DNA of 39,392 bases, taken from NCBI RefSeq assembly GCF_013870535.1, contig NZ_JACBXC010000003.1, forward strand, positions 1 through 39,392. Reading direction: 5' to 3'. The stretch comes from Streptomyces phytophilus. Lineage in GTDB: Bacteria > Actinomycetota > Actinomycetes > Streptomycetales > Streptomycetaceae. Made by a program: the position numbers and the translations under genes. Below are positions 1-39,387 of this stretch, piece after piece; within the stretch, counting starts at the first letter, position 1, and each line of letters starts with the position of its first letter. A model generated the notes under the pieces. That model ran no database searches. It was not told where the DNA came from and saw only the letters and a list, made by a program, of their open reading frames with translations.

Positions 1-171
1 GTCGGGCTCCGCCCGACTGATATGCCGTCACTTCGTTCCGGCAGTAGCCCGCTTCGCGGGCTGAGCCCTTCGGGCTTGTCGGCTTCGCCTAGCGGCAGGG
101 TCCGCTTCGCTCCCCCTGCCTCAACTCTTCGGCTTCGCCTCCGAGTTTTCAAGGCCCGCTACCGCGGGCCT
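1..171. other. Candidate telomere of a linear replicon (seven hairpins)
   Basis: Seven inverted repeats follow one another with almost no space. Arms are 1-7/11-17, 23-27/39-43, 46-52/56-62, 64-68/72-76, 94-100/114-120, 123-127/143-147 (with an inner GGC TTC GCC at 131-139) and 152-159/164-171; a small GGC TTC GCC lies at 81-89. The first palindrome starts at base 1. The triloops read TTC or TCC on this strand, so GAA or GGA on the complement, which would be the 3' overhang. GNA triloops in a chain of palindromes over the last 160-170 bp are the established structure of Streptomyces telomeres, patched by terminal-protein-primed synthesis. The bases differ from the archetypal telomere as I remember it, so this may be a variant class. 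That the window edge is the true DNA end is inferred. Confidence 0.72.
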
Positions 172-1000
172 GCTGGCTACAGGATCCGGCTCATCGGGTG
201 ACTTGGGCTTCCTGCTGACTGTAGGTCAGGGTGATTTGCGGTGTCTGTCTCAACGACAGTGAAGGTGCTTCCTTCCTGCAAAAATTCCTGAGGATCCGAG
301 TTTCCTTCCCTTCCCTGGGACGAGCCGGCCTCACTCTGCAGCAGGAGACGAGGCGACTGGGCGATTGCGGTTCAGGGACGGGGCTCGACAGGAGATCGTC
401 AGCGTGGCTGTTGGTATCCGCCGCGCGGTCCACTGCTTCTCCAGCAGGGCTCTTCGATCCTCGCGCAAGGCGATGGGATTCGCCGGCCCGCAAGCTTCAG
501 CGTGTGGACACCGCTCTGCCGCCGACGGTCAAACCGTCATCGTGGTGGATCGTATTCGCGAACCGAGCAAGTCCTCCTTCGTACGATGACTTTCGTGTGA
601 CACCGCTTTCGCGGACTCGTGTTCGCTGTGGATGTCTGTGATGGGCTTACGTTTCAGGTTGCCGTCTACTTTTCGTCGCTGATTACGCTAGTAGATCCAG
701 ACTTACGTCGTGCAGTCTCCTGAGTCATAAGTTGTGTGTCGCTTAACTTTGGAGTGGCGTACTTATCATTGTTGCGGCTGCTGTAGTAATCGCGCTTCTA
801 CTAACTTCGCTGTGAGCTTTCAGCGGAGGTACGTGCGTCATAATCATCCGGCGCTTCATTGGTTCGTCGTGAACTATGTTGTAGAATCTTCGTGAGTCAG
901 TTGAAAAGCTGGCTCACAGTAGGTGGATCCAAACGTAAGCGGACCCCATACACGGAAGCTGGTCGCGGAAGGGTACGGGGTCCAGAGTGAAGGAACCACA
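172..1000. other. Subtelomeric non-coding region with a low-GC patch
   Basis: I see no convincing gene here; the open frames lack ribosome sites and family-like sequence. Composition drops sharply: a hand count of 661-900 gives 116 G+C of 240 (48%), far below the neighbouring genes. The patch has recurring short words such as CTTACG, TACTA and TAGTA. A hairpin at 892-900/909-917 (9 pairs, one G-U, 8-nt loop) lies at its right edge. The patch could be a replication, telomere-processing or RNA element, or simply an old horizontally acquired remnant. No function can be assigned. Confidence 0.5.
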
Positions 1001-8416: not shown

Positions 8417-8880
8417 ATCCGCTCAACAGCCCACTTGAGGTCGGCATGCGCACGCTGGTGCTGTTGTCCGCGTCCTTCCCGAGGCCGCTGGATGTGGCGC
8501 AACTAGTTTACCTGGACCACGCGATGCTCCACAGCGGAGAGCTGCACGGCCCGCCCAGCTTGCATCCGAGGGTTCCGGCCGGCCCTGGCGAGCTGGCGAT
8601 GAAACGGCACTTGATCGAGCAGGGCCTGATCGTCCTGATGCGGGCGGGCCTGGCAGACGTCGAAGCCGGCGAGGACGGCCTGGTTTACCGTGCGAGCGAG
8701 GAGGGGCCGGGCTTCGTGGACATCCTGGCGGCGCCCTACACCGATCAGCTCAAGCACCGTGCCGCTTGGGTGATCGCCACCCAGTCCTCACCCGGGCTGG
8801 ACGTCCGCGCCGCGACCCGTGACATCACCGACCGGTGGGCCCGCGACTTCGCTTCCCACCAGCCCTTCCCCGGAGAGTGA
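8413..8880 (+). CDS. ABC-3C system middle component
   Basis: A 155-aa protein starting GTG within the stop of the nuclease gene. It opens NPLNSPLEVGMRTLVLL and carries LDHAMLHSGELHGPPSLHP. It is a small winged-helix-like protein of the kind placed between effector and ATPase in ABC-3C operons, and I recognise it as the middle component, probably of the MC2 class. It is expected to bridge the coiled-coil ATPase and the nuclease. There are no membrane segments or catalytic motifs. The next gene begins two bases after its stop. The assignment rests on the opening motif, size and gene order together; sequence alone would be weaker. Confidence 0.75.
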   Translation: MNPLNSPLEVGMRTLVLLSASFPRPLDVAQLVYLDHAMLHSGELHGPPSLHPRVPAGPGELAMKRHLIEQGLIVLMRAGLADVEAGEDGLVYRASEEGPGFVDILAAPYTDQLKHRAAWVIATQSSPGLDVRAATRDITDRWARDFASHQPFPGE

Positions 8881-8882
8881 CC

Positions 8883-16200: not shown

Positions 16201-17457
16201 AAGCTCGGCGGCGTCGCCGACGACGTCACCCAACGCTCCCTCGGCGGCGACGGTGCTGTCGCGGGCATGCGCGGCAGCGGCCTCGAGCGTACTGAAGGCG
16301 CTGGCCGCGGAGTTCTGCTCGGCTATCAGACGTTTCCGCAGATCAATGACAGGACCGTGCGCCTTGTAGGCGTCACTGATCTCGATGGCATGCGCCTCAG
16401 CCATCGCGGCGCGGTGGTCGCCAGCCAGCCGCCTGACCTCAGCGTCCGCATCCTTGGCGCCGCTGTTGGCCTGGGACAGGTGGTTCTCGGCGTTCCTGAC
16501 CTGCTGGCGACCGGTGTTGACGTCGGCAGCGGCGTCGCTTGCGGCACTGTGTGCGGTACGGGTGACGTCGACGACATGCCCGGTCCACACCCGGGAGAAC
16601 TCGCTCAGCACGTCCGCGGCATGCTCGTCGCGTTCGAAAGCATCCCGGGTGGTTTTGGACTCGGCCAGGGCATCCGCGGTGGCGGTCAGAACATCGCCGG
16701 CGACTCCCGGGAGGGACTGCCGCAGCGCCGCGGCGGCCGCGGCCGGTGACACGTCGCCCAGCAGGGACGGGTTGCGGACCTCCCGCAGTCGCGAGGCGAG
16801 TTCACGCACCTCCTCGGCGGTGGTGGACCAGAGCCGGGCGGCCAGGTGTTCGACGTAGGCGTCTGGGCCCTCGAAGACCTGCCCGCCGTCTTCCTGGATG
16901 CGGGCACAGAAGTCGTCGTGCTCCCACGCCCCGCCGCCGGGCGCGCGCAGCGCCACCTCGTACAGCGGCCGTCCGGGCACGGTGAAGGGGACGACCGTGA
17001 CGGATGGCGAGGCGCTGGGTGAGTACTGGAGGCGGACCCCGAAACTCACCACCGATCCGGCCGGCGCCGTCTGCGCCGGCGATGCCGCTGTCGGCTCTGC
17101 GTCAGGCGCGGCAAAACTCAGCCACAGGTATCCGTAGCGGCGACGGCTCTTGGCGGGGGCGCCTTCACTCATGAGGAGTTTCAGCGTGGTGGGGCGTGCC
17201 TTGCCGGCGGCGAGTTTGGCAGCGTTCAGGTCCAGCAGGTAGGGCCATAGCGCCTCCAGGGCGGTGGTCTTGCCCGTACCGTTGGGTCCCCGCAGCAGCA
17301 GCCGGCCCGAAGCTGCGGGCAGGTCCAGGTCTCCGTAGCGCCACACGTTCGACAGTCCGGCGCCGATCAGGCGCCAGCGGCCGCCGAACCGGCCGGCGTT
17401 GCCGGACGGCGCGGGCGGAGACTGCATGGTGAAGTCCAGGTCGAGGATGTCGCTCAC
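13198..17457 (-). CDS. jetC: Wadjet type II JetC, SMC-like ATPase (TIGR02680 family)
   Basis: The true start is GTG 17457, overlapping the jetB stop (GTGA) and preceded by AAGGAA; the longer upstream frame only shadows jetB. The product is 1,419 aa. Walker A GPNGTGKT lies at residues 57-64. About 1,100 residues of alternating charged helices follow, typical of long SMC coiled coils. The ABC signature LSGGE lies near 1,302 and Walker B LRLVPLDEV near 1,330. This size and layout match the large subunit of the DUF2397/2398/2399 cluster, known as type II Wadjet. JetC drives ATP-dependent loop extrusion on incoming plasmids together with the JetA kleisin and JetB. High GC creates long false frames on the other strand. 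Confidence 0.92.
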   Translation of the reverse strand: MSDILDLDFTMQSPPAPSGNAGRFGGRWRLIGAGLSNVWRYGDLDLPAASGRLLLRGPNGTGKTTALEALWPYLLDLNAAKLAAGKARPTTLKLLMSEGAPAKSRRRYGYLWLSFAAPDAEPTAASPAQTAPAGSVVSFGVRLQYSPSASPSVTVVPFTVPGRPLYEVALRAPGGGAWEHDDFCARIQEDGGQVFEGPDAYVEHLAARLWSTTAEEVRELASRLREVRNPSLLGDVSPAAAAAALRQSLPGVAGDVLTATADALAESKTTRDAFERDEHAADVLSEFSRVWTGHVVDVTRTAHSAASDAAADVNTGRQQVRNAENHLSQANSGAKDADAEVRRLAGDHRAAMAEAHAIEISDAYKAHGPVIDLRKRLIAEQNSAASAFSTLEAAAAHARDSTVAAEGALGDVVGDAAELAEDAVSAGAPQAVLETLLAHRPRARSTRHVADRTVDPGPGLTLTHDRTGLLDLAAAWIASAQTHRGTAGRATLIQKDHTAVAEAARTAKTAEDRASRAESDHDEATQAAARAGSNAREAARDALRAVARWAPQHPDLRGLHDPDLLSLDEYSVWEAAEIDALAGAEPAAVRNRLSAWALQALQVGEALAAHHENAARNHQVTAAQLDAAAAEHRAQARRLREGQLLPLPRPQWAGPGDDDAALGSLLEWRSGMTENQRTLLEFALACAGVLSAHLHTGGATTSAWHISPAGSPAEHNLTAVLDVDPDHPRADLARTVLARIALSDTATSPRHDAALVIGRDGTFAAGPLTANPAAALTPTGAVPPAASHIGARTRLARARTMADELDEAAATLQEQAAGERTEAADRRRSRDAVRSAARSFPPRDALVDAEAERARTAKAAHRLEDAARILRGQADAAAAEHTRLHADWIARARDLGLPTTLDELTELIESSRTRAEKLESCAKQLTGRLLITLDRVLRSLPDESALTARLAELEHAAQRAHDTALETGAELAEAEFAGDVDDAARRFEAAKARAEELSSQLETARRKAIDAEKLLSTRESELGTARKGLDAARPRQESTHTYLARLLAWAPIRRALDVDAFLSARGALTTDGLGTGPELLDRAAELLARRPTASKKILGEHYDDVRAELAQTWTIARSDPPAGLDELETFVLTHTETQYNPPDAAARAQALATRAKNALDAAEEAALRDFVVGRLPSAIGTAWATLTEWKKSVNTKMRAAQASSGVGIQVHIELRDDLDPATRTVYELSCKVGDALRTEEQKTQVGEALQALLAAADGNTMTERLTAAVDIRDWVDVHYLVERPGPDGEPTTRRWGSRTGLSGGERRLVVLAPMLAAIAANYDRLTPTGLRLVPLDEVPAEVDERGREGLARYLAELDVDLLCTSYLWDGAPGAWDGIDAHDLEAGEDGTVVAFPMLVRGLQPLPGDEADPALDDEGPA

Positions 17458-18857
17458 CGCAGTTCCTTGTCTTCTTGCTGATCGGCCGCGAAGGTGCTGA
17501 ACAAGTCCGGGTACTGGCGAGCCGGTGTGTCGGATCTGCCCGCGCCTGGGGGGCGCTTGGCCGTCGGGGTGGTTGCGGGAGGGCGGGTGCGGGAGCGGGT
17601 GGTTTGGGGAGCGGCGCTGCCTTCTTCCGCCCAGCGGCCGGTGGCGGGAGCGAACCACCACTGCGGACCGGCCGCGTCGTCGATGGGATGGTCGGCGTGG
17701 TCGAGGTGGACCAGGTTGGTGCCGGTCAACAGGTCCACGACCCGCTCCGCCAGCAGAGCCGGGTCAGATGCGTACTCGGCGCCCCAACCGCCTTTGCCCG
17801 AGGCTTTGCTGTCGGCGAACTGCGCCAGTGCAGCGACCACGTCGTGATGCGTCATGCCGCGCCACCCCGGTCCGGGGCCGTCACCGGCGGTGCCGTGAAC
17901 GGCGGCGTGGTCGATCAGGAGCAGCGCGGCGTGCGCGACCGTGCCGGGTGTGGGAAAGGGCATCGGGCCGAGTTCACGGTGGTGGCGGAAGGACTCGTCC
18001 GGCACGACGAAGGCCGCGCCTTCGCTGCGGCGCTCCAGGCTCAGCCCGAAGGCGGCCGCCAAGGGGGCGCCGTCGTCGCCCCGGACGCGCTGGCTCAGCC
18101 ACTGCGCTTCGGCGTCGTCCAGCAGCGCAGTGTGCACGCAGGTGTCGTCCACCAGCGCACGGCGCATCCGGCGGGCCGCGTCCGGCTCCCGCTGCACCTG
18201 CTCAAGCCACCCGTGCGGGTCGGTCGCGGGATCGACGGTGCCGGGGTTGGCGACCACATGGGCCAGCCGGGTGTGGTGGATGGCAAGCAGGACCGGCGCC
18301 TGCTCATCGTGAAGGTAGCCCTCCAGATTGCCGTCAAGACGCTCCACCACGCCGCGTTCGTCGAGCATGCGCAGCGCGGCCACGATCGCACGCCGCTCGC
18401 CCAGATCGCCCCGCTGCGGCAGGGCAGCCTCGGCTGCCGCGGAGCGGGCGGCGGTGACCATCTGCCCGAGCCCGGTCCTCGGCGGCATCGACTCGGCTGC
18501 CGCGACCAGCAGGAAGAACCAGGAGCAGGCAGCCGGGCTCGGTCCCTGCCGCGCCCACACCGTCGGGCGCGGTGGAGCGCTCTTGCGCAGCCGCACCAGG
18601 TTCCGTTCGATGACCAGGACCCACCCCAGCCGGGCGACGGCGGAGCGCAGCGCACTCTCGTTGCGGCGCACCGCGGCGATCAGTTCGTCGTCGCGGCCGC
18701 CGACCAGCCAGGGTGTGGCCGCCAGACGGCGCAGCAGCGATGCTGCTTCGGCGTCGGCCTCGGGCCTCCAGGCCCTGCGGCGCCGTGAGGCGTCCGCCGA
18801 GCCCGTCGCGGGGTCGGTGGCAGGTTCGGCGGATTCCCGATGGATCTCCTGGCTCAT
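17454..18857 (-). CDS. jetB: Wadjet type II JetB (DUF2398 family)
   Basis: 467 aa; its ATG overlaps the jetA stop (ATGA) and its stop overlaps jetC. Winged-helix text is visible: LLRRLAATPWLVGG, RLGWVLVIERNLVRLRK, then RAIVAALRMLDERGVVERLDG. This is the pattern of DUF2398/TIGR02678, the KITE-like partner that binds the kleisin in Wadjet. The last 70 residues are Pro/Thr/Arg-rich and probably disordered. The role is structural: it completes the JetABC loop-extruding complex. The four-base overlaps through the cluster suggest one mRNA with coupled translation. Confidence 0.88.
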   Translation of the reverse strand: MSQEIHRESAEPATDPATGSADASRRRRAWRPEADAEAASLLRRLAATPWLVGGRDDELIAAVRRNESALRSAVARLGWVLVIERNLVRLRKSAPPRPTVWARQGPSPAACSWFFLLVAAAESMPPRTGLGQMVTAARSAAAEAALPQRGDLGERRAIVAALRMLDERGVVERLDGNLEGYLHDEQAPVLLAIHHTRLAHVVANPGTVDPATDPHGWLEQVQREPDAARRMRRALVDDTCVHTALLDDAEAQWLSQRVRGDDGAPLAAAFGLSLERRSEGAAFVVPDESFRHHRELGPMPFPTPGTVAHAALLLIDHAAVHGTAGDGPGPGWRGMTHHDVVAALAQFADSKASGKGGWGAEYASDPALLAERVVDLLTGTNLVHLDHADHPIDDAAGPQWWFAPATGRWAEEGSAAPQTTRSRTRPPATTPTAKRPPGAGRSDTPARQYPDLFSTFAADQQEDKELR

Positions 18858-20491
18858 GCTGCGCCTTCCTGCGACGGAGCGGTGCCGAGTGTCTGACGGC
18901 TGCTCAGGTGGCCCGGGCCGCGCTGCGGGGCGATCCGTAGCGTGGCGCGCACTGTCAGGTCGTCGGTCATGGTGGCACCGGCAAGCGCTTCCATGGCGGC
19001 CCGGGAGGGACGGCGGCCGGGCTGATGGAACAGGGGGATACGGCCAGGCAGCAGAACGCGCCAGGTGGGGGCCTCCACTGTGCCGGTGGCGGTGCCGGTG
19101 TGGACCAGGGTGCAGGCCAGTCCCCCGCTGGTTCCCGTGCGGGCCGGACCTGTTGCGCCTGCGCGAGCGGCAGTCATGAGGGCGGCGAGCGCCACCCGGG
19201 CTGCGGCTTCGTCCAGCTGCTGGCCGGGTACCGCAGCCAGCACCGTGGTCACTGCTGCCGAGTGTTCGACCTGGCGTCGCGCCCGGTCGGCGGCGACCTG
19301 GGCCCTGACCGCCGTGTCATCGCGCGGCGCGCTGCCCCGCCCGCGCGGGCCGGAGCGGCCGGTGGTGCGCAGCAGCGTCGGCACCGGCACCTGGGGGCCA
19401 CCGCGCCAGGAAGGGTTGCGGCCGGCTTCGCCCTCGTCGGCCTGGCCGTAGAGCTTGCGCCAGGCATGGTCGCCCACCGCAGCCTGGAAGATCTGCACCC
19501 CCACCTCAGGAGTCAGCACCGCCCGGGCCAGAGACAAAGCACGAGTACGGCTGGAGGCCGTACCCGCGGACGAGTGCAGCCGGCGCAGGTTGGCATGCAT
19601 GCTCGGCAACGTCCGCACCAGGCGCAACGAGAACCGTGCCGCCCGACCGGTGCGGACGTCGAACCAGGCCCGCAGTCCTTCCCAGTCCTCCACGCGGCCG
19701 CCGCGGGAGGCGGTGAGCGCGCCGGCGGCGATGAGGTCACGGGCCTGGGAGGCATCGACCGACGCCTGGGCCAGCGGGCCGAACCACGGCACGAGAGCAG
19801 TCAGAGCCGCTGCGGCGCGGGCGGAACCGGAGTCGAGTTCGGCCGCGACACGGGTGGCGTAGTCGACCAGCAAACCCTTGAGGTCCCCGGTGCGTTCCTC
19901 GTCCAGGTCGAACCGGTCGGCCAGCGCCATCAGCGCATCCTCAGCACCGACCAGGGCAGCATCCAGGTCGTCATGGCTGGTGAACACCGCGCCCACCGCA
20001 TCCACGCACGCACGGTCCAGGCCGCCGACGACAGGCTCGCTCTCCCCCAGCGCGGCGGCGAGGGACTCCAGGTGAATGACGATGCGGTTCAGCGACACGA
20101 TCGGGATCTCCCGCACCGTCGCCGTCCCGGCCAGAACCTGCCGGTAGAAGCGCTGGACGTGCCGGCCCGCGGGGCTGGCGGTGTAGCGCCAGTTCCGCGC
20201 CAGGATCTCCACATACCGGCGCGCCCGGCTGTTGTCCGACCGGACCGAGACCGCGCCCAGATCGTGGAGAGCGTTCAAGCGAGCCTCCACCGTCCGCGCA
20301 TCCACACGAGGCCCTGCAGCCGGCAGTGCTGCCGTCACCTCAGCTGCCGTCAGGTCGGTCACCGATCCTTCCAGCACATCCATGATCGCGATGTACTCGT
20401 CGGACTCAGGACGCACCAGATATCCCACAACCCGCCGCGCATCAGACACAACCTCAGCCCCGGCGAAATCCTGCTCTTCTTGCGTCACCAC
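18854..20491 (-). CDS. jetA: Wadjet type II JetA (DUF2397 family, kleisin)
   Basis: The first gene of the operon begins GTG 20491 (a second GTG follows at once) after a strong GGAGGGGGA; 545 aa. The opening has YLVRPESDEYIAIMDVL, and the winged-helix segment LNALHDLGAVSVRSDNSRA is followed by GRHVQRFYRQVL, a pattern I know from DUF2397/TIGR02677. In type II Wadjet this protein is the kleisin that closes the JetC dimer. The middle is long-helical, and the C-terminal third, rich in Ala, Arg and Gly (about residues 350-545), is less conserved. The region upstream (20492-21161) is non-coding and must hold the operon promoter. Confidence 0.88.
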   Translation of the reverse strand: MVTQEEQDFAGAEVVSDARRVVGYLVRPESDEYIAIMDVLEGSVTDLTAAEVTAALPAAGPRVDARTVEARLNALHDLGAVSVRSDNSRARRYVEILARNWRYTASPAGRHVQRFYRQVLAGTATVREIPIVSLNRIVIHLESLAAALGESEPVVGGLDRACVDAVGAVFTSHDDLDAALVGAEDALMALADRFDLDEERTGDLKGLLVDYATRVAAELDSGSARAAAALTALVPWFGPLAQASVDASQARDLIAAGALTASRGGRVEDWEGLRAWFDVRTGRAARFSLRLVRTLPSMHANLRRLHSSAGTASSRTRALSLARAVLTPEVGVQIFQAAVGDHAWRKLYGQADEGEAGRNPSWRGGPQVPVPTLLRTTGRSGPRGRGSAPRDDTAVRAQVAADRARRQVEHSAAVTTVLAAVPGQQLDEAAARVALAALMTAARAGATGPARTGTSGGLACTLVHTGTATGTVEAPTWRVLLPGRIPLFHQPGRRPSRAAMEALAGATMTDDLTVRATLRIAPQRGPGHLSSRQTLGTAPSQEGAA

Positions 20492-26183: not shown

Positions 26184-27109
26184 GATCGGGTCCTCTCAGC
26201 TGTTCGGCTGCGGGACCCCGGACGGTTGGCTGCCAGAGGGGGTCCCGCCTGACGAAGCGAGAAGCTAGGGGGCGGCACACCAGGTGCGACCTGGGACATA
26301 GGCCGCACAGCGGAAATCCCCGAGGTCAGCGGCAACCTTTTCGTGCCCGCCCCCGGCATCTCCCACCGAAATCCCGGACGTCGGCCACAGGCCGTACAGC
26401 ACGTGATAAAGAGGTCAACGCGCCCTGCACGCCCCAGAGTTGCACGTAGCGCCCAGCTACGGCATCCGCCGCCGAGCACACCGGCAGCCCGGACTCGGCA
26501 CCGCTGAGCCCACCGACTACGCCGCCCTCCTTCCACCCGGCAGCCCCAACGGCCTCACGGCAGCGACTCGCCCTTCGCCCACCAAGACACCCGCGGGCCC
26601 CCGCGGCCGCCGAATGGGCGAACCCATTCGCCCATGGCTTGCGGAGGGGCGGTGGCATCCCAAAGACGGCGGCACCGCCCCTACCGGCCCATCACCGCCA
26701 TCGCTCGACCGGGGGCGGATCGGGGCACCCTCGCTGACTTCCCACCGATCACCCGCGCCGCCGCACACGGCTCGCGCCGGCACCACCACCCTCGCTCCTG
26801 ACCCTTGGAACACGTTTCGAGGCCCCGCTCGTGTGCCGCAACGCGTGGTCTGGGTGCGGCTGGTGATGCGCATGGTTGTAGGCAAAATGCTCCAAACTTC
26901 TGTTCGATATCGCACTAAAAATTGGTAGAGACCACCCATCATCGCCGCAGCCACTCACCGTGTAGGTTCAGCAACTGCGTGCGACGAAGTCGTTATTCCG
27001 CATGCTCGGTGGGGGCAGGGGAAGGGCATGCGGGTCCGTCTGCAGGGGGGATACGCGCTGGGGACGACTCTGCATTCGACTGGGTGTGCCACGATCGGAA
27101 GGACACATC
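26184..27109. other. Non-coding region upstream of the RHS gene
   Basis: About 925 bp with no gene I can support; the long frames are typical high-GC noise. It contains the paired hairpins at 26612-26635 and an AT-richer stretch at about 26875-26935 (including the palindrome CGATATCG), which is the likeliest place for the RHS promoter. I cannot define -35 and -10 boxes. Confidence 0.45.
26612..26635. repeat. Two mutually exclusive hairpins
   Basis: ATGGGCGAA (26614-26622) pairs with TTCGCCCAT (26627-26635), while GAATGGG (26612-26618) can instead pair with CCCATTC (26623-26629) around a CGAA loop. The two folds share bases and cannot coexist. It may be an operator or an attenuator-like element; no adjacent gene explains it. 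Confidence 0.5.
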
Positions 27110-30100
27110 TTGAGTCGCTTCAAACGGTGGCCCCGGGGCAGACAGGCGAAGGAGCCGTCACGCTCACCCGCAAGACTGCTTCGTTTTCTGCTGGTTGTCG
27201 CTGTGGCCGCGGGGCTCGTACTGCCCGGGGTGCTGCAGGCTGGGCCGTTCGCCCCGGACGATGACCCGCCAGCGGCACCTGCACCGGTCGCCAGGAACGT
27301 CTCCGAACCGGTCAAGCCGGCCAAGGCGATGTCTGCGAAGGAGCGCGGGGCGCAACTGGATGCGGACCGAGTGCTGCGCGACGCCTATCCGCAGTTGGAC
27401 CGGGCGGGACGCGAGGATCGTTCGGCGGCTGAGGAGAAGCTGCGGAAGCAGCTGAAGACAGCTGAGCAAGGTCCGTCCGATGAGGGTGGGATATCCACCC
27501 AACTGGGCAGGGACCGCGGGGATGGGAAAGAACTCGTGGCTCTGGCTGAAAAGCAGCCGACCAGGATCAAGTCCGAGGGGCCTTCCACACTGGCTGACGA
27601 GCCACCGTTCGATGACCACGGCGAGGTCATCGACATGGGGGTGACCGCTCCATCGAACCCGCAGTTGTGGGTCAACGCCCGACCCGGTCAGACCACATGG
27701 AGTGTCGAGGCCAACTGGTCCAGCAGCCAAGGGATACCGCAGGGACCGGTCTTCCTTCAAATAGACTTCTACCGCGCTTCCGACGACAAGCTGCTCGGCA
27801 CAAGGAACTTCGATACAGATCCGAGCGACTACCGCGACGGTGACACCACCGGTACCTGCCTCCAGTGGCTGAACCCGACTTACCCCGTCAAGGTATGCAA
27901 CTTCAACATCTACGACGGGATGCTGCTGACCAGCCCGGCTGAGGGCTACTACGCGAAGCTGTCGTACGCGACGAAGATCCAGAAGGACTGGCGGGAGGTG
28001 AAACCGGACACGTGGCAACTGTTCTACATCCCGCACACCTGGACTTCGAAAACCACGTCGCCGACAGGGCCCGCGTACAAGACACCTGGCATCTCGGAGC
28101 AGCTGGCCGGTGCGTGCGTGTGCCCGTACCAGGCGTACCAGGCGGACCCGGTGAACACCGCGACTGGGGCTGTGCATGAGACCGCCACTGACGCCTCCGT
28201 GCAAGGGAAGGGCCTGCCGTTTGAGGCGACGCGTTTCTACGCTTCCAACGCCACCAGCGACGATGGGCTACTGGGCAAGGGCTGGCGGCTACCGTTCGAG
28301 ACCGGCCTGCAGGTCGGCCCCGACACAGTCACGCTGACGGACTTCGACGGCGGGCTGGTGAAGTTCACCGAGAACGCCGACGGCACCTTCAGCGGCGAGA
28401 AGCCCGCGAAGTACACCCTGACCAAAACGGGTGATGGCTACCGGCTCACCGACACCGAACACTCATCCCGCCAGTTCGACGCCGCTGGCCAGGTGACTAA
28501 GTGGGTGGACGGCTCCGGCCAGGGCCTGACCTTCGCCTACGACAGCGGCAAGCTCGCCTCCGTCACCGACGCAGCGGGGCGACAGCACACTCTGACCGTT
28601 GATGCTGCCAGCGGGCGTCTCGCCCAGGTCGACCTTGCCGATGGCCGCAGCGTCACTTACGACTACGCCGGCGGCCAGTTGACCTCCGCCACCGCCGTGG
28701 ATGGCGGTGTGACCAAGTACGGCTACGACACCGGCGGTCGGCTCGCGACGATCACTGACCCGAACGGCAAGCTGGTCACCCAGAACACCTACGACACCAC
28801 CACCGGCCGCATCACCAAGCAGATCGACGCTCACGGCGGGGAGTACACATTCACCTGGGAGCCCGACCCTGACTTGCCCAACGGATCCGGCGAGTCCACC
28901 ATGACCGACCCGGCGGGCGGCCGGTGGACGGACGCCTACGAGGCGGGCGTGCTGATCGGCAGCTACAAGCCGGCAGGCGGCTATGACAGACGCTACTTCG
29001 ATCAGCACCTGAACGTCACCGCGCAATACGACGACAAGTCGCAGCCTACGACCAGGAAGTTCGACGCCCGCGGGAACGTGACGGAGCAGACCAAGGGCGG
29101 AGTGACACAGAAATTCACCTGGGACTCCTTCGACCGTGTCACCTCTTACACCGACGGCCGGGGGAAGAAGACCACCGTCACCCATGAGGGCTCCTCAGAC
29201 CTTCCCGCGACGGTGACCGCACCCGCGGGGACGACCACCTATACGTACACCGCGGACGGGCAGGTCGCCACCACGACCGAACCCGGGAACCGCGTCACGA
29301 GCTACACCTACAACAGCCATGGCCTGGTGGCCTCGGAGACGACGCCGGCAGGCCGCACCACCACCTACACCTACGACGCCGCGGGCCGGGTGAAAACCAC
29401 CACCGAGCCGCGAGGCAACGTATCCGGAGCAGACCCGGCAAAGTACACCACCACCACGGCCTACAACGCCCAGGGCCGGGTCGCGACGATCACCGGCCCC
29501 GAAGGCAACACCACGTCCTTCACCTACGACGAGGCGGGCAACACCACGTCCGTCACGGATTCGCTGGACCGGAAGACGACCTACGAGTACAACGCTGCCG
29601 GGCAGGTTACGAAGGTCACCGACCCGGAGGGCAGGGTCACCTCCCGCGAGTACGACAAGCGGGGCAACCTGCTCGCTGAGGTCGATCCAGCCGAGGGCCG
29701 CACCACCCACACCTACGATTCCCGGTCCCGCACCGTGTCGACGACGACACCTCGCGGCAACGTGACCGGCGCGGACCCGAAGAAGTACACCACCACCTAC
29801 GGCTACGACGACAACGGCAACCAGACCAAGCTCGTCGACCCCACCGGCGCCACCACGACGACGGTCTATGACGAGCTCGACCGTCCGGTGAAAGTCACCG
29901 ACCCGATGAACAAGGTCACCGAGACGGGGTACGACGCTGCCGGGAACGTCACGCAGGTGATCCAGCCGCACGGCAAGGGGCCGTCGTTCAGCTACACCGA
30001 CGACAACCTCCTCAAGACGGTCACCGACGCGCTGGGGAACATCACGACCCACGACTACGGCACCGCCCGGTACAAGAGCGCCGAGACCAGCCCTCTGGGC

Positions 30101-32584
30101 AACAAAGCCACCTGGACGTACAACAAGGACGGCCAGGTCATCAGCAAGGTGAACCCGCGCGGCAACGTGACCGGCGCGGACCCGGCGAAGTACACCACCA
30201 CCTACGGCTACGACGCAGCAGGAAACCTCACCGAAGTCACAGATCCCCTCGGCAACACCACCGAGACCACCTACAATGCGCTGGGCCGGCAGACGTCCGT
30301 CACCAATCCGAACGGCAAGACCACTACCACGGCGTACGACTCACTCGGACGCACGACCAAGGTCACCGCGCCCGACGGCGGCGAGACCAGCTACGCCTAC
30401 TCGGCCGGCCTGGTCTCCTCACGTACGGATGCGAACGGTCACGTCACCGCCTTCGGGTACGACACGGCTGGTCGTCTGACTTCTGCCACCGACCCGTTGA
30501 ACCGCGAGATCACCTACGGGTACAACGCGGACGGCCACCAGAACAAGGTCACCAACGGGCGCGGTGTGACCACCAGCGTCACCTACGATGCCCTCGGTCG
30601 CCCGACCGTCACTGACTACTCCGACACCACACCGGATGTGACCGTCAAGTACGACGGCAACGGCAACCGGCTGGAGGTCACGGACGGCACCGGGGCGCGC
30701 ACCTTCACCTACAACCCGCTCGACCAGCTCAAGACCGCCTCAGTGCCTGGACTGGCGAACGGTTTCACCTACGGTTACGACGGCGCCGGCCAACTGACCA
30801 AGCGCACCCCGCCGTCAGGCACGACCACCCAGTACACCTTCGACAAGGACGGCCGTACAACAGCCGCGACCACCGGCTCGGTCACGACCGGCTACGGCTA
30901 CGACGCAACCGGGAACCTGACGTCCACCAGCCTGCCTGCCGGCAATGGCTACACCGAGAACCGCACCTATGACGCTGCGGGGCGCATGACCGGCATCGCC
31001 TCGGTCAAGGGCGACACGACCCTGACGAGCCACACAGCGCAGCTGGATGCCGCCGGGCAGCCGGTGCGGGTCGACCAGATCGGCGGCCTGCGGGCGTCGG
31101 CGTACTACACCTACGACGACGCCGGGCGCATGCTGACCACCTGCACCTCCGCAACGCAGGCGCAGGCGTGCCCATCCGGAGAACCCACCACCAGCTACAC
31201 CTACGACCAAGTCGGCAACCGAACCAGCCACACCAACAGTTCCGGGGCAGAGACCACCTACACCTACGACGCGGCTGACCAACTCGCCTCCACCACCAGC
31301 GGTTCCACCACCGTCGCGTACGAACATGACGCCGACGGCAACCGCACCAGGGCCGGCGCCAGCACCTACACCTACGACGCCGAAAACCGTCTGATCAAGG
31401 CTGTCGGGAAGAGAACCAAGGAGTTCAACTACGACGCCGACAGCAACCGCGTAACGGACAGCCGCAGCTCCACCGTGCGGGCCTGGGACATGACCTACCC
31501 CGTGCCGGTGCTAGCCGGCGAGTACGACCCCGACAGCACTGCCCCGGATCTGACACGGGAGTACCGCTACAACCCGCTGGGCCAGATCGAGTCGATGTAC
31601 CAGGGATTCACCGGCAAGTCGCACTACTACCATCGGGACCTGATCGGCTCCATCACAAAAGTGACTGCGGCGGACGACGGCAGCACCGTGGAGGGGTACA
31701 GCTACGACGCCTTCGGCGCCGACGGGCCCACTCTCGGCACAAGCGACAGCTCCCTCAACCAGTGGTTCGGATTCGCCGGCGAATACAAGGAGTTCCTGGG
31801 CAACGAGTCCAGCCCGGCATCGGAGGCGGGGGGCTACAACCTCCGCGCACGGTCCTATGACCCGGTCACCGGCCGCTTCACCAGCACGGATCCCTACACA
31901 CCCGGTCAGGAGACCCCGGAGGCGTCACCGTACCCCTACGCGGACAACGCGCCCACGTGGCTCGTCGACCCGCTCGGCAGGGACGCCTGTCCGCCGGGGG
32001 CCGTGCCGGTCAGCGGGGACGTCTGCAGCTACGGCGCCTATCCAGGCCCAGAACCTGACGAGACCGCACATGAACTGCTCAAGGAATGGGTCATTGGATG
32101 GGGATCCACTGTCCGCTACTACGGCCCTGGCAGCGTCCTCGTCGACCAGATGCGACGAGACCCCTCCATGACGGTCGTGCGCAGCAAGATTCGCGGACAG
32201 CTCGCAGCGGGGAAGTCCGACGGATCCGTCGCCTACAGCGTCTTCGATGACGGGTGGAGCCGACTCTTCACCGATGTCCTGAGCAAAATTAACCTGTCGG
32301 ACAGGAACACGGACGCCGCTGTATTCATCGGCTCCTACGTTCTGGAATGGAAGCGAACCGGAGACCAAAACTACTGGTCACCTTCCAGCGCCGTGGGTGT
32401 CAACATGAGGATCGAAAACTCAACCACTCTCACGTCACTCACACACCTTCCCGGACCCTGGCGCAGTTTCCTGGAGGAATGCATCGGAGCACCGCTGGAC
32501 GCGGCCGCAAACTGGCTCGAAGGACCATTCGAGACAATCACTCAGATCCTCCATTGGAATGAGTGGTTCTACCCGAGCGTCTAG
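27110..32584 (+). CDS. Secreted RHS/YD-repeat protein with variable C-terminal tip
   Basis: The start is set at TTG 27110, which has GGAAGGA 8 bases upstream; an earlier in-frame ATG has none. The product is 1,824 aa. An Arg-rich N-terminus and LLRFLLVVAVAAGLVLPG form a signal peptide or anchor. From about residue 345 come DPVNTATGAV and the DUF6531-type entry, then a long run of YD repeats (consensus Y-D-x2-G-x3) to about 1,620. Three repeats carry the same insertion, RGNVTGADPAKY or a variant. The RHS core closes with YNLRARSYDPVTGRFTSTDP and WLVDPLGR. The last 200 residues (after DACPPGAVPVSG) are a separate domain with GSYVLEWKR and VNMRIENSTT, likely beta-rich and lower in GC. RHS shells encapsulate and release such tips as contact-dependent toxins (WapA type). 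I cannot identify this tip's activity. Confidence 0.9.
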   Translation: MSRFKRWPRGRQAKEPSRSPARLLRFLLVVAVAAGLVLPGVLQAGPFAPDDDPPAAPAPVARNVSEPVKPAKAMSAKERGAQLDADRVLRDAYPQLDRAGREDRSAAEEKLRKQLKTAEQGPSDEGGISTQLGRDRGDGKELVALAEKQPTRIKSEGPSTLADEPPFDDHGEVIDMGVTAPSNPQLWVNARPGQTTWSVEANWSSSQGIPQGPVFLQIDFYRASDDKLLGTRNFDTDPSDYRDGDTTGTCLQWLNPTYPVKVCNFNIYDGMLLTSPAEGYYAKLSYATKIQKDWREVKPDTWQLFYIPHTWTSKTTSPTGPAYKTPGISEQLAGACVCPYQAYQADPVNTATGAVHETATDASVQGKGLPFEATRFYASNATSDDGLLGKGWRLPFETGLQVGPDTVTLTDFDGGLVKFTENADGTFSGEKPAKYTLTKTGDGYRLTDTEHSSRQFDAAGQVTKWVDGSGQGLTFAYDSGKLASVTDAAGRQHTLTVDAASGRLAQVDLADGRSVTYDYAGGQLTSATAVDGGVTKYGYDTGGRLATITDPNGKLVTQNTYDTTTGRITKQIDAHGGEYTFTWEPDPDLPNGSGESTMTDPAGGRWTDAYEAGVLIGSYKPAGGYDRRYFDQHLNVTAQYDDKSQPTTRKFDARGNVTEQTKGGVTQKFTWDSFDRVTSYTDGRGKKTTVTHEGSSDLPATVTAPAGTTTYTYTADGQVATTTEPGNRVTSYTYNSHGLVASETTPAGRTTTYTYDAAGRVKTTTEPRGNVSGADPAKYTTTTAYNAQGRVATITGPEGNTTSFTYDEAGNTTSVTDSLDRKTTYEYNAAGQVTKVTDPEGRVTSREYDKRGNLLAEVDPAEGRTTHTYDSRSRTVSTTTPRGNVTGADPKKYTTTYGYDDNGNQTKLVDPTGATTTTVYDELDRPVKVTDPMNKVTETGYDAAGNVTQVIQPHGKGPSFSYTDDNLLKTVTDALGNITTHDYGTARYKSAETSPLGNKATWTYNKDGQVISKVNPRGNVTGADPAKYTTTYGYDAAGNLTEVTDPLGNTTETTYNALGRQTSVTNPNGKTTTTAYDSLGRTTKVTAPDGGETSYAYSAGLVSSRTDANGHVTAFGYDTAGRLTSATDPLNREITYGYNADGHQNKVTNGRGVTTSVTYDALGRPTVTDYSDTTPDVTVKYDGNGNRLEVTDGTGARTFTYNPLDQLKTASVPGLANGFTYGYDGAGQLTKRTPPSGTTTQYTFDKDGRTTAATTGSVTTGYGYDATGNLTSTSLPAGNGYTENRTYDAAGRMTGIASVKGDTTLTSHTAQLDAAGQPVRVDQIGGLRASAYYTYDDAGRMLTTCTSATQAQACPSGEPTTSYTYDQVGNRTSHTNSSGAETTYTYDAADQLASTTSGSTTVAYEHDADGNRTRAGASTYTYDAENRLIKAVGKRTKEFNYDADSNRVTDSRSSTVRAWDMTYPVPVLAGEYDPDSTAPDLTREYRYNPLGQIESMYQGFTGKSHYYHRDLIGSITKVTAADDGSTVEGYSYDAFGADGPTLGTSDSSLNQWFGFAGEYKEFLGNESSPASEAGGYNLRARSYDPVTGRFTSTDPYTPGQETPEASPYPYADNAPTWLVDPLGRDACPPGAVPVSGDVCSYGAYPGPEPDETAHELLKEWVIGWGSTVRYYGPGSVLVDQMRRDPSMTVVRSKIRGQLAAGKSDGSVAYSVFDDGWSRLFTDVLSKINLSDRNTDAAVFIGSYVLEWKRTGDQNYWSPSSAVGVNMRIENSTTLTSLTHLPGPWRSFLEECIGAPLDAAANWLEGPFETITQILHWNEWFYPSV

Positions 32585-33142: not shown

Positions 33143-33322
33143 TCTCCTTGAATACGCTCGCCCCTTCAGTCCTCAGACCTCTCAGTGACGACGAGAAGCG
33201 GGGCGGCCTGCCTGTCATCGACTCCAGGCCGTCGCCGTGACACTTCCAGCGGCTAACATGCTGAGGCGGATCAACCAGACAGCCATTGCCGACGTGGCAG
33301 TTGAGGATTCGGCATGGTGTGT

Positions 33323-34476
33323 TACTGACCTTGAATGTGTGATGTCGTCATGGTGGTGTGGGTCGGAGTCCTGTGCCGGTGAGGCAGCCGTCGAGGACGT
33401 CGGGCCGGTATTGGAGCCGGCGTAGTCCTTGCCGGATGGTGGCGATGAGATCGTCGGGGTCGGCGAAGCCCGGTTGGCCAAGGTGGTCCGCCGCAGTACG
33501 GACCAGATGCCCTCAACAGGGTTGAGGTCGGGTGCGTAGGGCGGGAGCTGGAAGACAGTCAGCCAGTCGCGTGCGGCGATGTAGCGGCGCATCCCGGCGG
33601 CCAGGTGGGTGTTGAGGTTGTCCCAGACCAGCACTATCGGGCCGCCAAGTTGCTGGTGAGCGGTCTGGATGAGGTCGCGGTAGTCCTTCCAGGAGAAGCT
33701 CTTGCGTCCGTCGGGCCGGGCGTCCGCACAGGGCCGGTAGATCAGCCGGGGGCGCCGGCCGGGCTTGTAGCAGACCAGGGCGGCCACAGATAAGCGGCGG
33801 CGGGAGCGGCCCCGCACGCGGACAACGGGGGTGTGGCCGCGGCGGGACCAGGTGCGGCTGGTCGGCGGCGTCATCGAGAATCCGGCTTCGTCTTCGAAGA
33901 CGAGCCAGGCGCCGAGCGCCGCCGCGGTCCTTCCACCTGCGGCCAGGTCTCCTTCACCCATCCGGCCACAGCCGCCTCGTTGCGTTCCACCGCGCGGCGG
34001 GCCGGGACCTGGCAGCTCCAGCCGTGCCGCCGCAGCAGAGCGGCCACCCCCTGGACGGTGTAGCTCTTGTGGAACCGGCGCCCGATCAGCGTCTTGATCC
34101 GCGACAGGGTCCAGATCTGGTCCGGCCAGCCATGCGCGACCGCGCCCTTCGCCAGCTCACGCTCCAGCACGGAGAACAACTCGTCGCTCAGCAGCGGCAG
34201 CGACGCCGGCCCCTTGGACGCCAGCGCTCGTGCCCCGCCCTGCGACCAGGACTTACGCCAGCGCTGCACCGACCGCACGCTGACCCGCAGATCACGGGCG
34301 ATCACCGCATTGTCGTCGCCGGCCCTGAACCGCTCGGCCGCCTCAAGTCGTAACTTCTCGCGGAAGGCCCGCCGTTCATCGGACAGCCCACCACCTTGCG
34401 CGTACCTCACACAACCGGCATACCGCAGGGATCACGAGACGTCAGCCCACACGACACCACGCATTGAACTTCAGTA
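33323..34476 (-). mobile_element. IS630-family insertion sequence, degenerate
   Basis: The ends match as an imperfect inverted repeat. The left begins TACTGACCTTGAATG (33323) and the right, on the other strand, TACTGAAGTTCAATG (34476). Over 26 bp they share TACTGA, AATG, GTG and TGTCGT. Each end starts with TA, which fits the TA target duplication of IS630/mariner elements. Length is about 1.15 kb. It carries one transposase with frame disruptions. Confidence 0.78.
33348..34410 (-). pseudogene. IS630-family transposase, frameshifted
   Basis: GTG 34410 opens an HTH part (RDLRVSVRSVQRWRKSW, then HGWSCQVPARRAVERNE). Near 33900-33930 the sense changes frame to AAALGAWLVFEDEAGFSMTP, followed by IVLVWDNLNTHLAAG and PYAPDLNPVEGIWSVLRR. 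These give the DDE triad: Asp of FEDE, Asp of WDN, Glu of PVEG. A second change near 33465-33475 is needed to reach the expected tail (FADPDDLIATIRQGLRRLQY) ending at TGA 33350-33348. The first shift could be programmed, as in some IS630 relatives, but the second looks like a lost base, so the copy is probably inactive. Confidence 0.82.
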
Positions 34477-36851: not shown

Positions 36852-36859
36852 CTCGGCAG

Positions 36860-36933
36860 TAGCGGGGACAGGATTTGAACCTGCGGCCTCTGGGTTATGA
36901 GCCCAGCGAGCTACCGAGCTGCTCCACCCCGCG
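36860..36933 (-). tRNA. Initiator tRNA-fMet (CAT)
   Basis: 74 nt on the minus strand, from C at 36933 to the discriminator A at 36860. The anticodon loop CTCATAA is closed by an anticodon stem ending in three G-C pairs (CTGGG/CCCAG), and position 1 (C) does not pair with position 72 (T). Both are hallmarks of initiator tRNA. The T arm is GCAGG/CCTGT around TTCAAAT. CCA is not encoded (CTG follows). Its fold looks intact. Being in an accessory region with decayed neighbours, it may be an extra copy or an integration target. Confidence 0.93.
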
Positions 36934-36991: not shown

Positions 36992-37564
36992 CTATGCAGC
37001 GAAGCCGACGTTGGTGCAGTACTCGTACGCTCCGTACTGGGATCCCAGATCAGGCAGGATGTCGTCGGTCCAGGCCGCGTCCAAGCCGTGGTGGTCGCCG
37101 GCCGCCTACGCGCCGACGATCCGATCCCAGCGGCGCACGTTCATGTGCCGGAAGGGAACGTCGCGCTGCAGCGGGCGGGCGACGCCGGACTGGTTGAGGG
37201 GGTGGATCTCGACCCTGGTGCCGCCGTTGGCGTTGAGGTGCTTGAGCAGGTTCCGGGCCACGTTCTGCCGGCGCACCACCCGGTAGGCGTCGTCGATCTT
37301 CTTCAGGTTCTTCTTCGAGGGGGTGCGCTTGCCTTCCAGCCACGCCCTGAGCGTGCGGTCGGTCACCGTCAGCCCGGCGTCCTTGGCGGCCTGACGGGCG
37401 TGGTCGGACCTGGTCAGGTATTTCAGGCGCGCCACCAGACCGCGTTTCGCGGTGACGGGGGTGGTGATGCCGCCGGCGAGGTCGTCGAGTTTTCGCCCGA
37501 CGAGTTCGCTTCCCTTGACGCCGCTGGCGCCGAACTTTCCGAAGTCGTTGTTCCTCTCCGGCAT
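36992..37564 (-). pseudogene. Terminal-protein-like gene interrupted by an amber codon
   Basis: ATG 37564 follows the upstream stop directly (TAGATG), so translation was coupled. The open part is 152 aa: a Gly/Lys-rich start (FGKFGASGVKGSELVGRKLD), then an HTH-like core LVARLKYLTRSDHARQAAKD, TVTDRTLRAWLEGKRTPSKK. A TAG at 37108-37106 stops it after WDRIVGA. The same frame goes on AAGDHHGLDAAWTDDILPDL, GSQYGAYEYCTNVGFAA, to TAG 36994-36992, giving 190 residues overall, near the size of Streptomyces terminal proteins (Tpg, about 185 aa), which also carry an HTH. The Tpg-like label rests on layout and partner, not on proven homology. A truncated but active product cannot be excluded. Confidence 0.55.
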
Positions 37565-39041
37565 CTACCGCTCCTCCCCCGTGGTGTCGGTGCCCGCGGT
37601 GTAGAGGTCTTTGACCTTGACCTCGGTGACCCCGCGGCCTTCGGGAAAGACACGGCGCCAGTCGCCGATGACGTGGAGTTCGTCGGTGCCCATCGCGCGG
37701 ACGACGGCGAGTCCTTCGTCGTGGGCTTTGAGCGCCTTCGTCCAGAGGTTGGCGAAGGCCTGCGAGCGGATGATGTGCATCCAGTCCGGACGGTACAGCT
37801 CCCGGTTGTAGTTCGACTCCCCCATGGTGGAGACGAACTTCGCGTACATGGCCTTCACGTACTCCAGGGTGACGGTGTCACCGTCGGCGATGGCGGTGTC
37901 CCGGGCCTCTTTGAGCGTGATGCGGAACTTCTCCAGCAGGTTCTCCGTGGCCCCCGAGGTGTAGGACTCGTGGACTTCCGGCGCCTCGCACAGCCCGTAC
38001 TTCGGGCCGGACAGGCGCAGCAGGAGACGCAGGGTGGGTTCGGTGACCCACAGGGGTCCGGGCTCGTCGCGCTCGCCGATCGGGTTGGGCAGCACGCCGT
38101 CGTGCTCCCAGGCGGGTGGGGTGATCAGGTGGACTCCGGCGCGGCGGCGGTCGTGCGGCATGCCGGTGGTGTGCTCGAGCTGCCCGAGCGGCAGATGAGT
38201 CTTGAGGGCGGACAGGTAGGCGCCGTTGATGTCCAGTGCCGTCACCTCATGAACGCCGGGCGGCAGTTCGGCGCGGTCCACTTGGGGCGGGCCTCCCAGA
38301 TCTGGTCCGCACCCCGGGAGGCCTGCTTCTTCAGGATGTCGGGAATCCAAGGGTGGGCGATCACGTCATAGCGGGCGCCCTTGCGGGTCTCGTCCAGCAA
38401 GCGCATCGCGTCCGGAATCGCCTTCTTCAACAGCGCCGCGGTGGCCGCTTCCACGTCACCCTGATGCTCCGCGAGCGCACCCTCAACCGCCGCATGGATC
38501 AAGCCCACCGGGCCGACTGCTCCTGGAAAGCCCGGCGGGCCGGGCCCTTGGCACGCTCCGACGGCTTCGAGGCCGGGGCAGGCCGGCCGGCGACCGGGGC
38601 TGGCTGCGCCCCGGCTGTGCTGTCCTGGCATCCGGCCGGGTCCAGGTGCTGAGCGAAGCCCTCCACCCGCTGTCCGGCCGGACGCCCGCACAGCACACAC
38701 GGCTCCGGCACGGTGAGTACCTCGACTTCGTCCCCGCCCTCGGGCTCGGAGGAAGCGGGCCCGGCCGCAGTGGACTCCACCGCCGCCTCGGGTTTGGGCG
38801 TGGAGTCGGTGGCGAGCTACCCGTCCAGGAGGTAGGCGTACTTGACGCGCACCTCGCCGGCCGGATCCCGGCCGGCTTCCCAGGCGCTAACCGTGGACGG
38901 GCTCACCCCGAGGGCACGGGCCACCTGCGCCTTGGACAGCTGAGCCTGCTCGCGCAAGGCGCGGCGGGCCTCAGGGTCCGGGAGGTCAGTCTGCGGGCCG
39001 ACGGAGGCGAGGAGCGAGTCGATCGCGTCGAAGTCACTCAC
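37565..39041 (-). pseudogene. HTH + zinc + family-B-polymerase-like protein, three lesions
   Basis: The GTG start at 39041 (AAGGGAG upstream) opens an XRE-type HTH of 74 aa (AIDSLLASVGPQ, SKAQVARALGVSPSTVSAWE) ending at TAG 38819-38817. The same frame continues (LATDSTPKPEA) through a CVLCG ... HLDPAGC zinc motif until one base is missing near 38502. The next part reads LIHAAVEGALAEHQGD to IWEARPKWTA, and a second base is missing near 38270. It then runs LPPGVHEVTALDINGAYLSA to the end. Restoring both bases and reading the TAG gives exactly 493 codons. DINGAYLSALK resembles polymerase-B motif A (DxxSLYP), YVKAMYAKFVSTMGE motif B, and VRAMGTDELHVIGDW motif C. An N-terminal HTH followed by a priming or polymerising part recalls Streptomyces Tap, so this is a candidate telomere-maintenance protein, now broken. 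Confidence 0.6.
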
Positions 39042-39054
39042 CGGGACGCTCCCT

Positions 39055-39387
39055 TCAGATGTAGGTGACGGGGTTGCGGGACAAGTGCGGGCTCTTGGTG
39101 GCGCGGCCGACACGGTCGTCGCCGCGCAGCAACTCCCCCTGGAGGGCGTAGCGGTCGCCGTGCTTGGAGATCCCGGTGATCTTCGCGACGGCGAGGACAG
39201 CGCCCCCGGTGTTGATGATCTGCACCTCGTCCTGGGCGAGAGCACGGTCGGCATTGAACTTCCAGATGCCGCGGCCAGCCTCCCAGACTTCGTCCTCACT
39301 CATGCCGGGGCGCCATCCGATGGTCGACCGCCCGAGCATGTCATCGGGGTCCGCCTCGCGCTCGGGGCCGATCTGGATCTGCAACAC
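39055..39387 (-). CDS. Conserved hypothetical protein of the HTH-polymerase-like module (110 aa)
   Basis: GTG at 39387 begins LQIQIGPEREADPDDML, only five bases from the window edge, so the true start could lie outside. The body reads GWRPGMSEDEVWEAGRGIWK, ADRALAQDEVQIINTGGAVL and AKITGISKHGDRYALQGELL, ending SRNPVTYI. It looks like a small alpha/beta protein with a beta-barrel-like second half. It is intact and lies 13 bases upstream of the HTH-polymerase-like gene. I remember it travelling with that gene in Streptomyces, which suggests a shared job, but no activity is known. Confidence 0.7.
   Translation of the reverse strand: MLQIQIGPEREADPDDMLGRSTIGWRPGMSEDEVWEAGRGIWKFNADRALAQDEVQIINTGGAVLAVAKITGISKHGDRYALQGELLRGDDRVGRATKSPHLSRNPVTYI

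Follow-up and report, generated by a model that had tools for sequence, protein, structure and literature searches.

The DNA analysed here (the window) is a stretch of 39,392 nucleotides, the entire contig NZ_JACBXC010000003.1 of a fragmented draft genome of Streptomyces phytophilus that comprises 1772 contigs and is 82% complete. A broken gene pair related to the telomere proteins Tap and Tpg occupies the right end of the window, which is also the contig end, on the minus strand. The gene order is an intact open reading frame (ORF) of 110 amino acids (aa), then a broken large gene, then a broken small gene. An intact counterpart (locus L002) is located in the end region of NZ_CP108593.1, a linear plasmid (104 kb) from Streptomyces sp. 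NBC_01178. Window positions 39387-36958 align with L002 positions 4842 to ~7320 at 89.6% DNA identity over 2480 columns. All three genes are open in L002 (110, 509 and 190 aa), with ~1.4 kb separating the end of the small gene from that of the plasmid. The block contains the following features, for which the coordinates of motifs A, B and C were counted by hand on the window-L002 alignment, invariance refers to intact homologues of the large protein, and dN/dS is the ratio of non-synonymous to synonymous substitution rates:

39055..39387, minus strand: upstream intact ORF of 110 aa, first of the conserved block; aligns with L002 4842-5174, dN/dS 0.17

37565..39044, minus strand: pseudogene of a putative short Tap-like telomere polymerase with one amber codon and two frame shifts; identified by the L002 alignment, NF047542, hhalign and a Foldseek search with the intact homologue

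38817..39044, minus strand: XRE-type helix-turn-helix (HTH) domain, the Tap-like N-terminus, up to the first amber codon; HTH_31 E 6.4e-11, NF047542 E 2.1e-15, 56.5 bits

38628..38699, minus strand, limits approximate: zinc-binding-like C-x2-C...H...C segment; C129, C132, H146 and C152 invariant in 58/58

38204..38233, minus strand: candidate motif A, DINGAYLSAL; Asp invariant in 58/58, homologous stretch paired with phi29 DVNSLYPAQM by hhalign

37820..37861, minus strand: candidate motif B, YVKAMYAKFVSTMG; K, Y and K invariant in 58/58, the homologues' AMYSKFVS placed on phi29 SLYGKFAS by hhalign

37670..37690, minus strand: candidate motif C, GTDELHV; T, D and E invariant in 58/58, outside the printed hhalign stretch to phi29

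36992..37564, minus strand: broken gene of a Tpg-like terminal protein, whose intact relatives have 190 aa, with one amber codon in its C-terminal part; identified by tblastn and profiles

Searches of Pfam and NCBIfam gave no significant match for the 110-aa ORF. The stop codon of the large gene directly abuts the ATG of the small gene, in the window and in L002 alike, as expected from an earlier reading of the DNA letters (the sequence-only reading), which had described a translationally coupled pair.

By sequence homology, the large protein is a short, divergent Tap, related to it both in the N-terminal HTH region and in the C-terminal core. The N-terminal ~180 residues of the intact homologue (best stretch 4-182) match the Tap model NF047542 with an E-value of 6.7e-21; an HTH is the sole significant Pfam match. 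The C-terminal core was compared with four archetypal Taps using an alignment of 58 intact homologues; hhalign gave a probability of 98.4 and an E-value of 6.3e-15, and the aligned stretch stops just before motif C. In a second hhalign setting, the more distant members of the family match Tap with an E-value of 7e-15; the close family alone reaches only 1.7e-4, which speaks against the kinship. The sequence-only reading had overlooked this relationship: the pair is a system of the Tap/Tpg type. It shares with archetypal Tap/Tpg (NF047542/NF047541) the HTH N-terminus, the common C-terminal core, a small HTH partner of ~185-190 aa and an operon order equal to that given for tap-tpg in PMC3572947. 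In contrast to archetypal Tap, the protein is ~200 aa shorter and carries the C-x2-C segment, which is predicted from its conserved residues to bind zinc. The pair also lies far under the family cut-offs, with 74.7 bits for the intact homologue (65.3 bits for the window) against a curated whole-protein cut-off of 600 bits for NF047542 and 15.7 of 90 bits for NF047541, and is tied to a different telomere type.

The small protein of 190 aa has a Cro/C1-like HTH at model residues ~35-102, in a model with a predicted local distance difference test score (pLDDT) of 88.5. The window gene shows 92% identity in tblastn to the intact gene beside the L002 polymerase, and its profile match spans one internal TAG codon (E 3e-100). 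Although the intact homologue matches the Tpg model NF047541 only weakly (E 0.011, under the cut-off), it resembles Tpg in size (190 versus ~185 aa), in its HTH domain and in the position of its gene directly downstream of a tap-like gene. VIA-align returned HTH proteins as the best rows (Z up to 5.1) and no clear match for the C-terminal part, which is not evidence of a new fold. Ser126, at least 90% conserved in the homologue alignment, is located in a coil of the model after the HTH half, and Ser or Thr occurs at or beside this position in eight of nine plasmid sequences (the ninth, L007, being ambiguous). The acceptor residue of Tpg is T114, described as lying in a coil in PMC3572947; by analogy, our guess is that Ser126 could be its equivalent.

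The sequence-only reading had also proposed an HTH/zinc protein with polymerase motifs A, B and C. All three motifs can be located, and their key residues are conserved: none of the 58 aligned intact homologues deviates at the Asp of motif A, the Asp of motif C or the Lys and Tyr of motif B. On this invariance we reject chance motif matches. The two Asp residues are also present in 9/9 plasmid relatives. The motif positions are those characteristic of family B, together with the hhalign alignment. In archetypal Tap, the counterpart of motif A reads IDVNMAF and an Asp stands at the place of motif C (by eye), both Asp residues being invariant in 4/4 sequences.

A structure model was calculated for the intact homologue of the large protein. 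In a Foldseek search of the PDB with this model, the top row is phi29 DNA polymerase in complex with its terminal protein (E 1.2e-3, probability 0.96). Polymerases account for 42 of the 50 listed rows and HTH proteins for the remaining eight; we assigned the 42 by title or entry and presume them to be family B as far as we can judge. VIA-align of the large protein listed mainly HTH rows, together with DNA polymerase alpha/primosome rows at Z 6.7-6.8 that cover model residues ~263-498. When compared by hhalign with 37 phi29/PRD1-type polymerases, the distant members gave an E-value of 0.0004, the family plus distant members 0.002, and the same set with Tap added 0.003, while reversed controls in the same comparison gave 0.08 and 0.12. 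The alignment brings motifs A and B into register, with DVNGAYLSALK on DVNSLYPAQMY and AMYSKFVS on SLYGKFAS.

Several observations count against a polymerase fold. The confidence of the model is moderate (pLDDT 65.4, predicted template modelling score (pTM) 0.39), and the top Foldseek row superposes poorly, with a template modelling (TM) score of 0.20 and a root-mean-square deviation of 11.1 Å; no row reached an E-value of 0.001. The hhalign probabilities to phi29-type polymerases are only 10-35%, and the comparison is not significant for the close family alone (E 0.15) or for Tap alone (E 0.56). None of the sequence-profile libraries searched calls the large protein a polymerase, and no polymerase came out of phmmer or of a profile search against sequences in the PDB. 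Neither a scan of viral contigs nor tblastn of phage records yielded a confirmed relative of the core.

The structure prediction suggested by the sequence-only reading thus lends support to a polymerase palm, with phi29 polymerase on top and polymerases in 42 of 50 rows, without amounting to proof given the E-value, TM score and pLDDT. The core likely, though not provably, has a family-B palm. In an alternative explanation the pair patches ends in the manner of Tap/Tpg, yet the core of Tap has some fold other than the family-B palm, the likeness reflecting a common layout of sheets and helices. The moderate model confidence, the poor superposition and the weak direct sequence signal to phi29-type polymerases would fit this, as would the statement, in PMC4513846 (2015), that Tap and Tac synthesise DNA on terminal proteins and that neither has a DNA polymerase motif. 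We consider it unlikely, as the Foldseek top is almost exclusively made up of polymerases of one fold family, motifs A and B are in register in the alignment of hidden Markov models, and the acidic motif residues are invariant. A hidden family-B palm in Tap would resolve how DNA is synthesised without a visible polymerase motif. The shared core would provide Tap with predicted catalytic residues, so that a supposed new class of polymerase without motifs would become a family-B enzyme with a predicted active site, and the copying of bacterial chromosome ends would be tied to phage protein-primed replication.

With the phi29/PRD1-like protein-primed family-B polymerases and their terminal proteins, the pair has in common the fold ranking, the register of motifs A and B and the adjacency of polymerase and terminal protein genes. 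The present core differs in being short and in standing behind HTH or helicase N-termini. Judging by its size it apparently lacks an exonuclease part, and the pair is predicted to patch ends and not to copy a whole replicon. A 2017 paper entitled "Telomere associated primase Tap..." may already name a catalytic domain. The main text of the B-family review PMC7544198 never mentions Streptomyces, Actinobacteria, telomere, linear plasmid or terminal protein.

A survey with one genome per species confirmed 295 relatives, of which 80 were kept as genome loci. An intact terminal-protein-like gene follows within 250 nt downstream in 64 of these 80, at -10 to +5 nt in 52 of them; the other 16 loci have no intact terminal-protein-like gene within that distance, which tells against a strict pairing. 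The nine plasmid loci read first, one of them from Brachybacterium and some with just 29-31% identity over part of the polymerase, all have a gene of 182-198 aa immediately behind the polymerase gene. In two distant relatives, the HTH head is replaced by a DnaB-like helicase domain and a Phd-like segment, which precede the same core and then a terminal-protein-like gene. Their arrangement resembles the pRL2-type candidate telomere proteins (a Tap/helicase-like and a Tpg-like protein), a likeness drawn from the description in PMC8743542.

Among the relatives, the 17,342-base linear plasmid L004 of Streptomyces canus encodes the core within a 1062-aa protein, a terminal-protein-like gene and its own single-stranded DNA-binding protein; it might be a minimal protein-primed replicon. 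Single in-frame TAG codons are present in some homologues, in genomes G062, G119 and G019, in G062 in both end copies.

Relatives of the core are over-represented close to replicon ends. Six complete chromosomes have core copies equidistant from both ends, within a range of 1.2-58 kb (G062 1.2 kb, G122 3.2 kb, G047 3.7 kb, G104 11.4 kb, G065 14.3 kb and G144 57.6 kb); the copies of G122, G047 and G065 are of the more distant kind, with reading frames of more than 1000 codons. G085, G048 and G129 have one copy 17-18 kb from one end, and the copy of G013 is 214 kb from an end. Additional copies of G047 and G104 are located 462-497 kb inside. For the 60 plasmid matches listed, positions are skewed towards the ends, with a median relative position of 0.19 (0 at the end, 1 at the centre; one-sided Kolmogorov-Smirnov p 9e-7, which is too small a value since there are near-duplicate plasmids among the 60), and 12 of the 60 are at most 15 kb from an end. 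A median distance to the end of 50 kb among the same 60, and a module ~350 kb inside plasmid pSCAT, are less easily reconciled with a role at the ends.

A circular, telomere-free context as the rule can be rejected, as only one of the nine plasmid records first read is labelled circular, and pSGZL has a published telomere in spite of its circular label. The sequence-only reading had proposed a link to telomeres that intact homologues found mainly on circular replicons far from any telomere would have contradicted; some plasmid and chromosomal copies do lie far inside, but the relatives as a whole are concentrated towards the replicon ends.

The pair co-occurs with a particular telomere type. 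At the end of the NBC_01178 plasmid, the outermost 204 bases form tandem hairpins with GGA and GTA loops (fold z -5.0). Searching with this end by blastn gave 21 plasmid records, and in each of them the best place was at the record end or at most a few hundred bases from it. The terminal protein gene was found in 21/21 of these plasmids, full length in 13, over all 152 query residues in seven and as fragments only in one, and the polymerase core in 15/21. Of 150 Streptomyces genomes (G000 being excluded from the counts), nine have a stretch resembling this telomere at E 1e-8 or better, and a close terminal protein gene is present in 9/9 of these versus 28/150 overall (hypergeometric 8e-8). Before this count, 17 of 26 genomes (own excluded) with short telomere matches at E 1e-5 to 1e-3 were dropped. 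The telomere match is located within ~170 bases of a contig start or end in eight of the nine, the ninth being G136. Eight of the nine also have a strong polymerase match, and G056 has just a 60-residue polymerase fragment.

This association has to be read with caution: the telomere query was taken from a module-bearing plasmid, a large share of the records derives from a single strain collection and includes duplicates (with three modules of identical DNA), the genome cut-offs (1e-8 for the telomere, 1e-90 for the terminal protein) were set after the lists had been inspected, and in six of the 21 plasmids the polymerase core was searched for and not found. These six, NZ_CP108493, NZ_CP108263, NZ_CP108311, NZ_CP108303, NZ_CP061282 and NZ_CP108294, carry the terminal-protein-like gene, one of them as fragments. 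For three, the core is on a sister plasmid of the same strain; for a fourth, from S. xanthii (apparently genome G098), it is on contig C1. The polymerase may act in trans for the core-less plasmids.

Plasmid pSCAT of S. cattleya is classed as Sg2247-type in PMC8743542, which also reports that telomere proteins were undetected in genomes with Sg2247-type ends, for example those of S. rimosus and S. albidoflavus. The pSCAT end joins the module-linked telomere group, with 81% identity over 185 nt to the chromosome end of G048, and it is this match that connects the module-linked telomere with the Sg2247 class. The end of pSGZL matches the group weakly (76-78% over 46-55 nt). Both published Sg2247 plasmids that we examined, pSCAT and pSGZL, carry the polymerase and terminal protein genes. 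The close relatives of the pair therefore most likely serve Sg2247-type telomeres. Given that the telomere proteins of this class had gone undetected and that pair and telomere co-occur, we regard the pair as a strong and concrete candidate for the missing end-patching proteins of Sg2247-type ends (PMC8743542).

The same data bear on the simplest alternative, an ordinary pair of transcription regulators that is found near telomeres by chance. The nine plasmid loci are annotated in this sense, as "helix-turn-helix transcriptional regulator", "transcriptional regulator", "hypothetical protein", "acyltransferase", or helicase- or antitoxin-like, and never as telomere protein; both L002 proteins match HTH models, the small one just under the Pfam cut-off. 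The HTH, however, makes up little of the 509 aa, Tap homology and invariant acidic residues mark the C-terminal core, and regulators would not be expected to show a near-complete co-occurrence of terminal protein gene and telomere type. On the Tap-homologous core, the acidic residues and the telomere co-occurrence we reject a plain regulator pair, which appears very improbable.

Known pairs of a telomere-associated and a terminal protein include SCP1 Tac/Tpc and S. griseus GtpB/GtpA, with which we compare our pair by their descriptions in PMC4513846 and PMC7205883. Instead of an unnamed class, the pair could belong to one of these, which are likewise two-gene systems (PMC7205883). According to PMC7205883, however, no Tap or Tpg homologue was found on pRLB1-9.1 with queries that included GtpB/GtpA at a 50% identity cut-off, while a plasmid record of strain RLB1-9, possibly the same plasmid, carries the core at 85% identity. 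Membership in a published system is rather doubtful, if a little less so than the absence of a palm considered above.

In the window itself, both genes of the pair are broken. The large gene has three lesions relative to L002: an early amber codon at 38819-38817 that coincides with a 9-base gap, a complex indel near 38510 with two bases out and one in, which shifts the frame, and a gap of a single base near 38276. It also has frame-preserving gaps of 33, 6 and 3 bases. The sole lesion of the small gene is an amber codon at 37108-37106. Two ambers and two 1-nt deletions had been counted from the sequence, which holds in substance; one of the shifts is a two-out, one-in change and the first amber is accompanied by the 9-base deletion.

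Relative to L002, dN/dS is 0.24 for the large and 0.18 for the small gene, close to the values of two intact relatives (0.21-0.22 and 0.11-0.20, respectively). Selection was therefore active until recently and the decay is recent, in agreement with the "freshly decayed" of the sequence-only reading. A similar dN/dS would also be seen if the lesions were assembly or sequencing errors and the module were alive; the assembly, with its 1772 contigs and 82% completeness, is poor and the module is at a contig end. The lesions nevertheless look unlike single-base sequencing errors, one occurring with a 9-base deletion and another being a complex indel, and a second gene is hit as well. The neighbouring 33-36.7 kb also contain overlapping ORF pieces and a pair resembling an insertion sequence (by eye). 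We therefore hold an error improbable, to about the same degree as a Tap core without a palm.

The opposite end of the window carries a telomere of its own:

1..220, no strand assigned: telomere-like window end with tandem hairpins with GAA and GGA loops; fold z-score -3.67, 0/200 shuffles as good

This left end has the anatomy of a Streptomyces telomere and falls outside the Sg2247 group. In a blastn comparison of 22 ends, it is linked to just one, from a genome with a full-length Tap (81.7% over 71 nt); five plasmid ends also match, weakly. Elsewhere in the window's own genome, a Tap-like fragment stands at the edge of a contig and the C-terminus of a Tpg scores above the family cut-off; a second copy of the polymerase core was not found in this 82% complete draft. 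Across genomes, the polymerase module tends to be absent where Tap is full-length, and the reverse: a strong core match is present in 33 of 48 genomes without full Tap versus 21 of 102 with Tap (Fisher 1.8e-8, kinship ignored), where genomes without a match over the NCBIfam cut-off count as lacking Tap, including those with split or partial Taps such as G107, G113 and G010.

Since the contig end is of another telomere type and the pair is dead, another end-replication system probably took over. The sequence-only reading saw in the pair the remains of a second end-replication system that had been replaced. The first part is supported, and no result refuted it; the replacement is made plausible by the telomere of another group together with the Tap and Tpg fragments in the same genome.

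Our data are best explained, and with good probability, by the remnant of a Tap/Tpg-type operon for protein-primed end patching that was inactivated recently and whose close relatives most likely serve Sg2247-type telomeres. In the intact system, the first protein would use its Tap-like HTH/zinc N-terminus to bind the folded 3' overhang and its minimal family-B palm to attach the initial nucleotides to its partner, the terminal protein, which would remain on the 5' end. An end system of Sg2247 type may have been carried in, perhaps by a plasmid, and may have died once another system served the replicon end. The window would then show one end system in the course of dying on a replicon with an end of another type.

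A broader proposal, to which we give an even chance, is that all Tap-type proteins, archetypal Tap included, are minimal family-B polymerases that arose from a phi29-like pair of polymerase and terminal protein. Exchange of the head (HTH, HTH plus zinc, or DnaB-like helicase) would have given rise to the telomere classes, and the dead class of the window would be the missing Sg2247 pair.

Other features of the window were observed beside the pair. A tRNA-Met (CAT) at 36859-36933 on the minus strand is located directly behind the dead terminal protein gene and is perhaps borne by a plasmid or other element. Two overlapping ORFs in different frames at 33215-34410, minus strand, have the look of an IS630-type transposase (by eye), and further overlapping ORF pieces adjoin them up to 36.7 kb. 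The ORF at 27002-32584, plus strand, encodes an 1860-aa protein with many YD-type repeats and an RHS-like look (by eye). A subtelomeric Wadjet-type operon occupies 11915-20491 on the minus strand, with JetA, JetB, JetC and JetD all matched by PADLOC; beside it, at 7286-10748 on the plus strand, is a Lamassu-type pair of LmuA and LmuB, and the two together form a defence island near the telomere.

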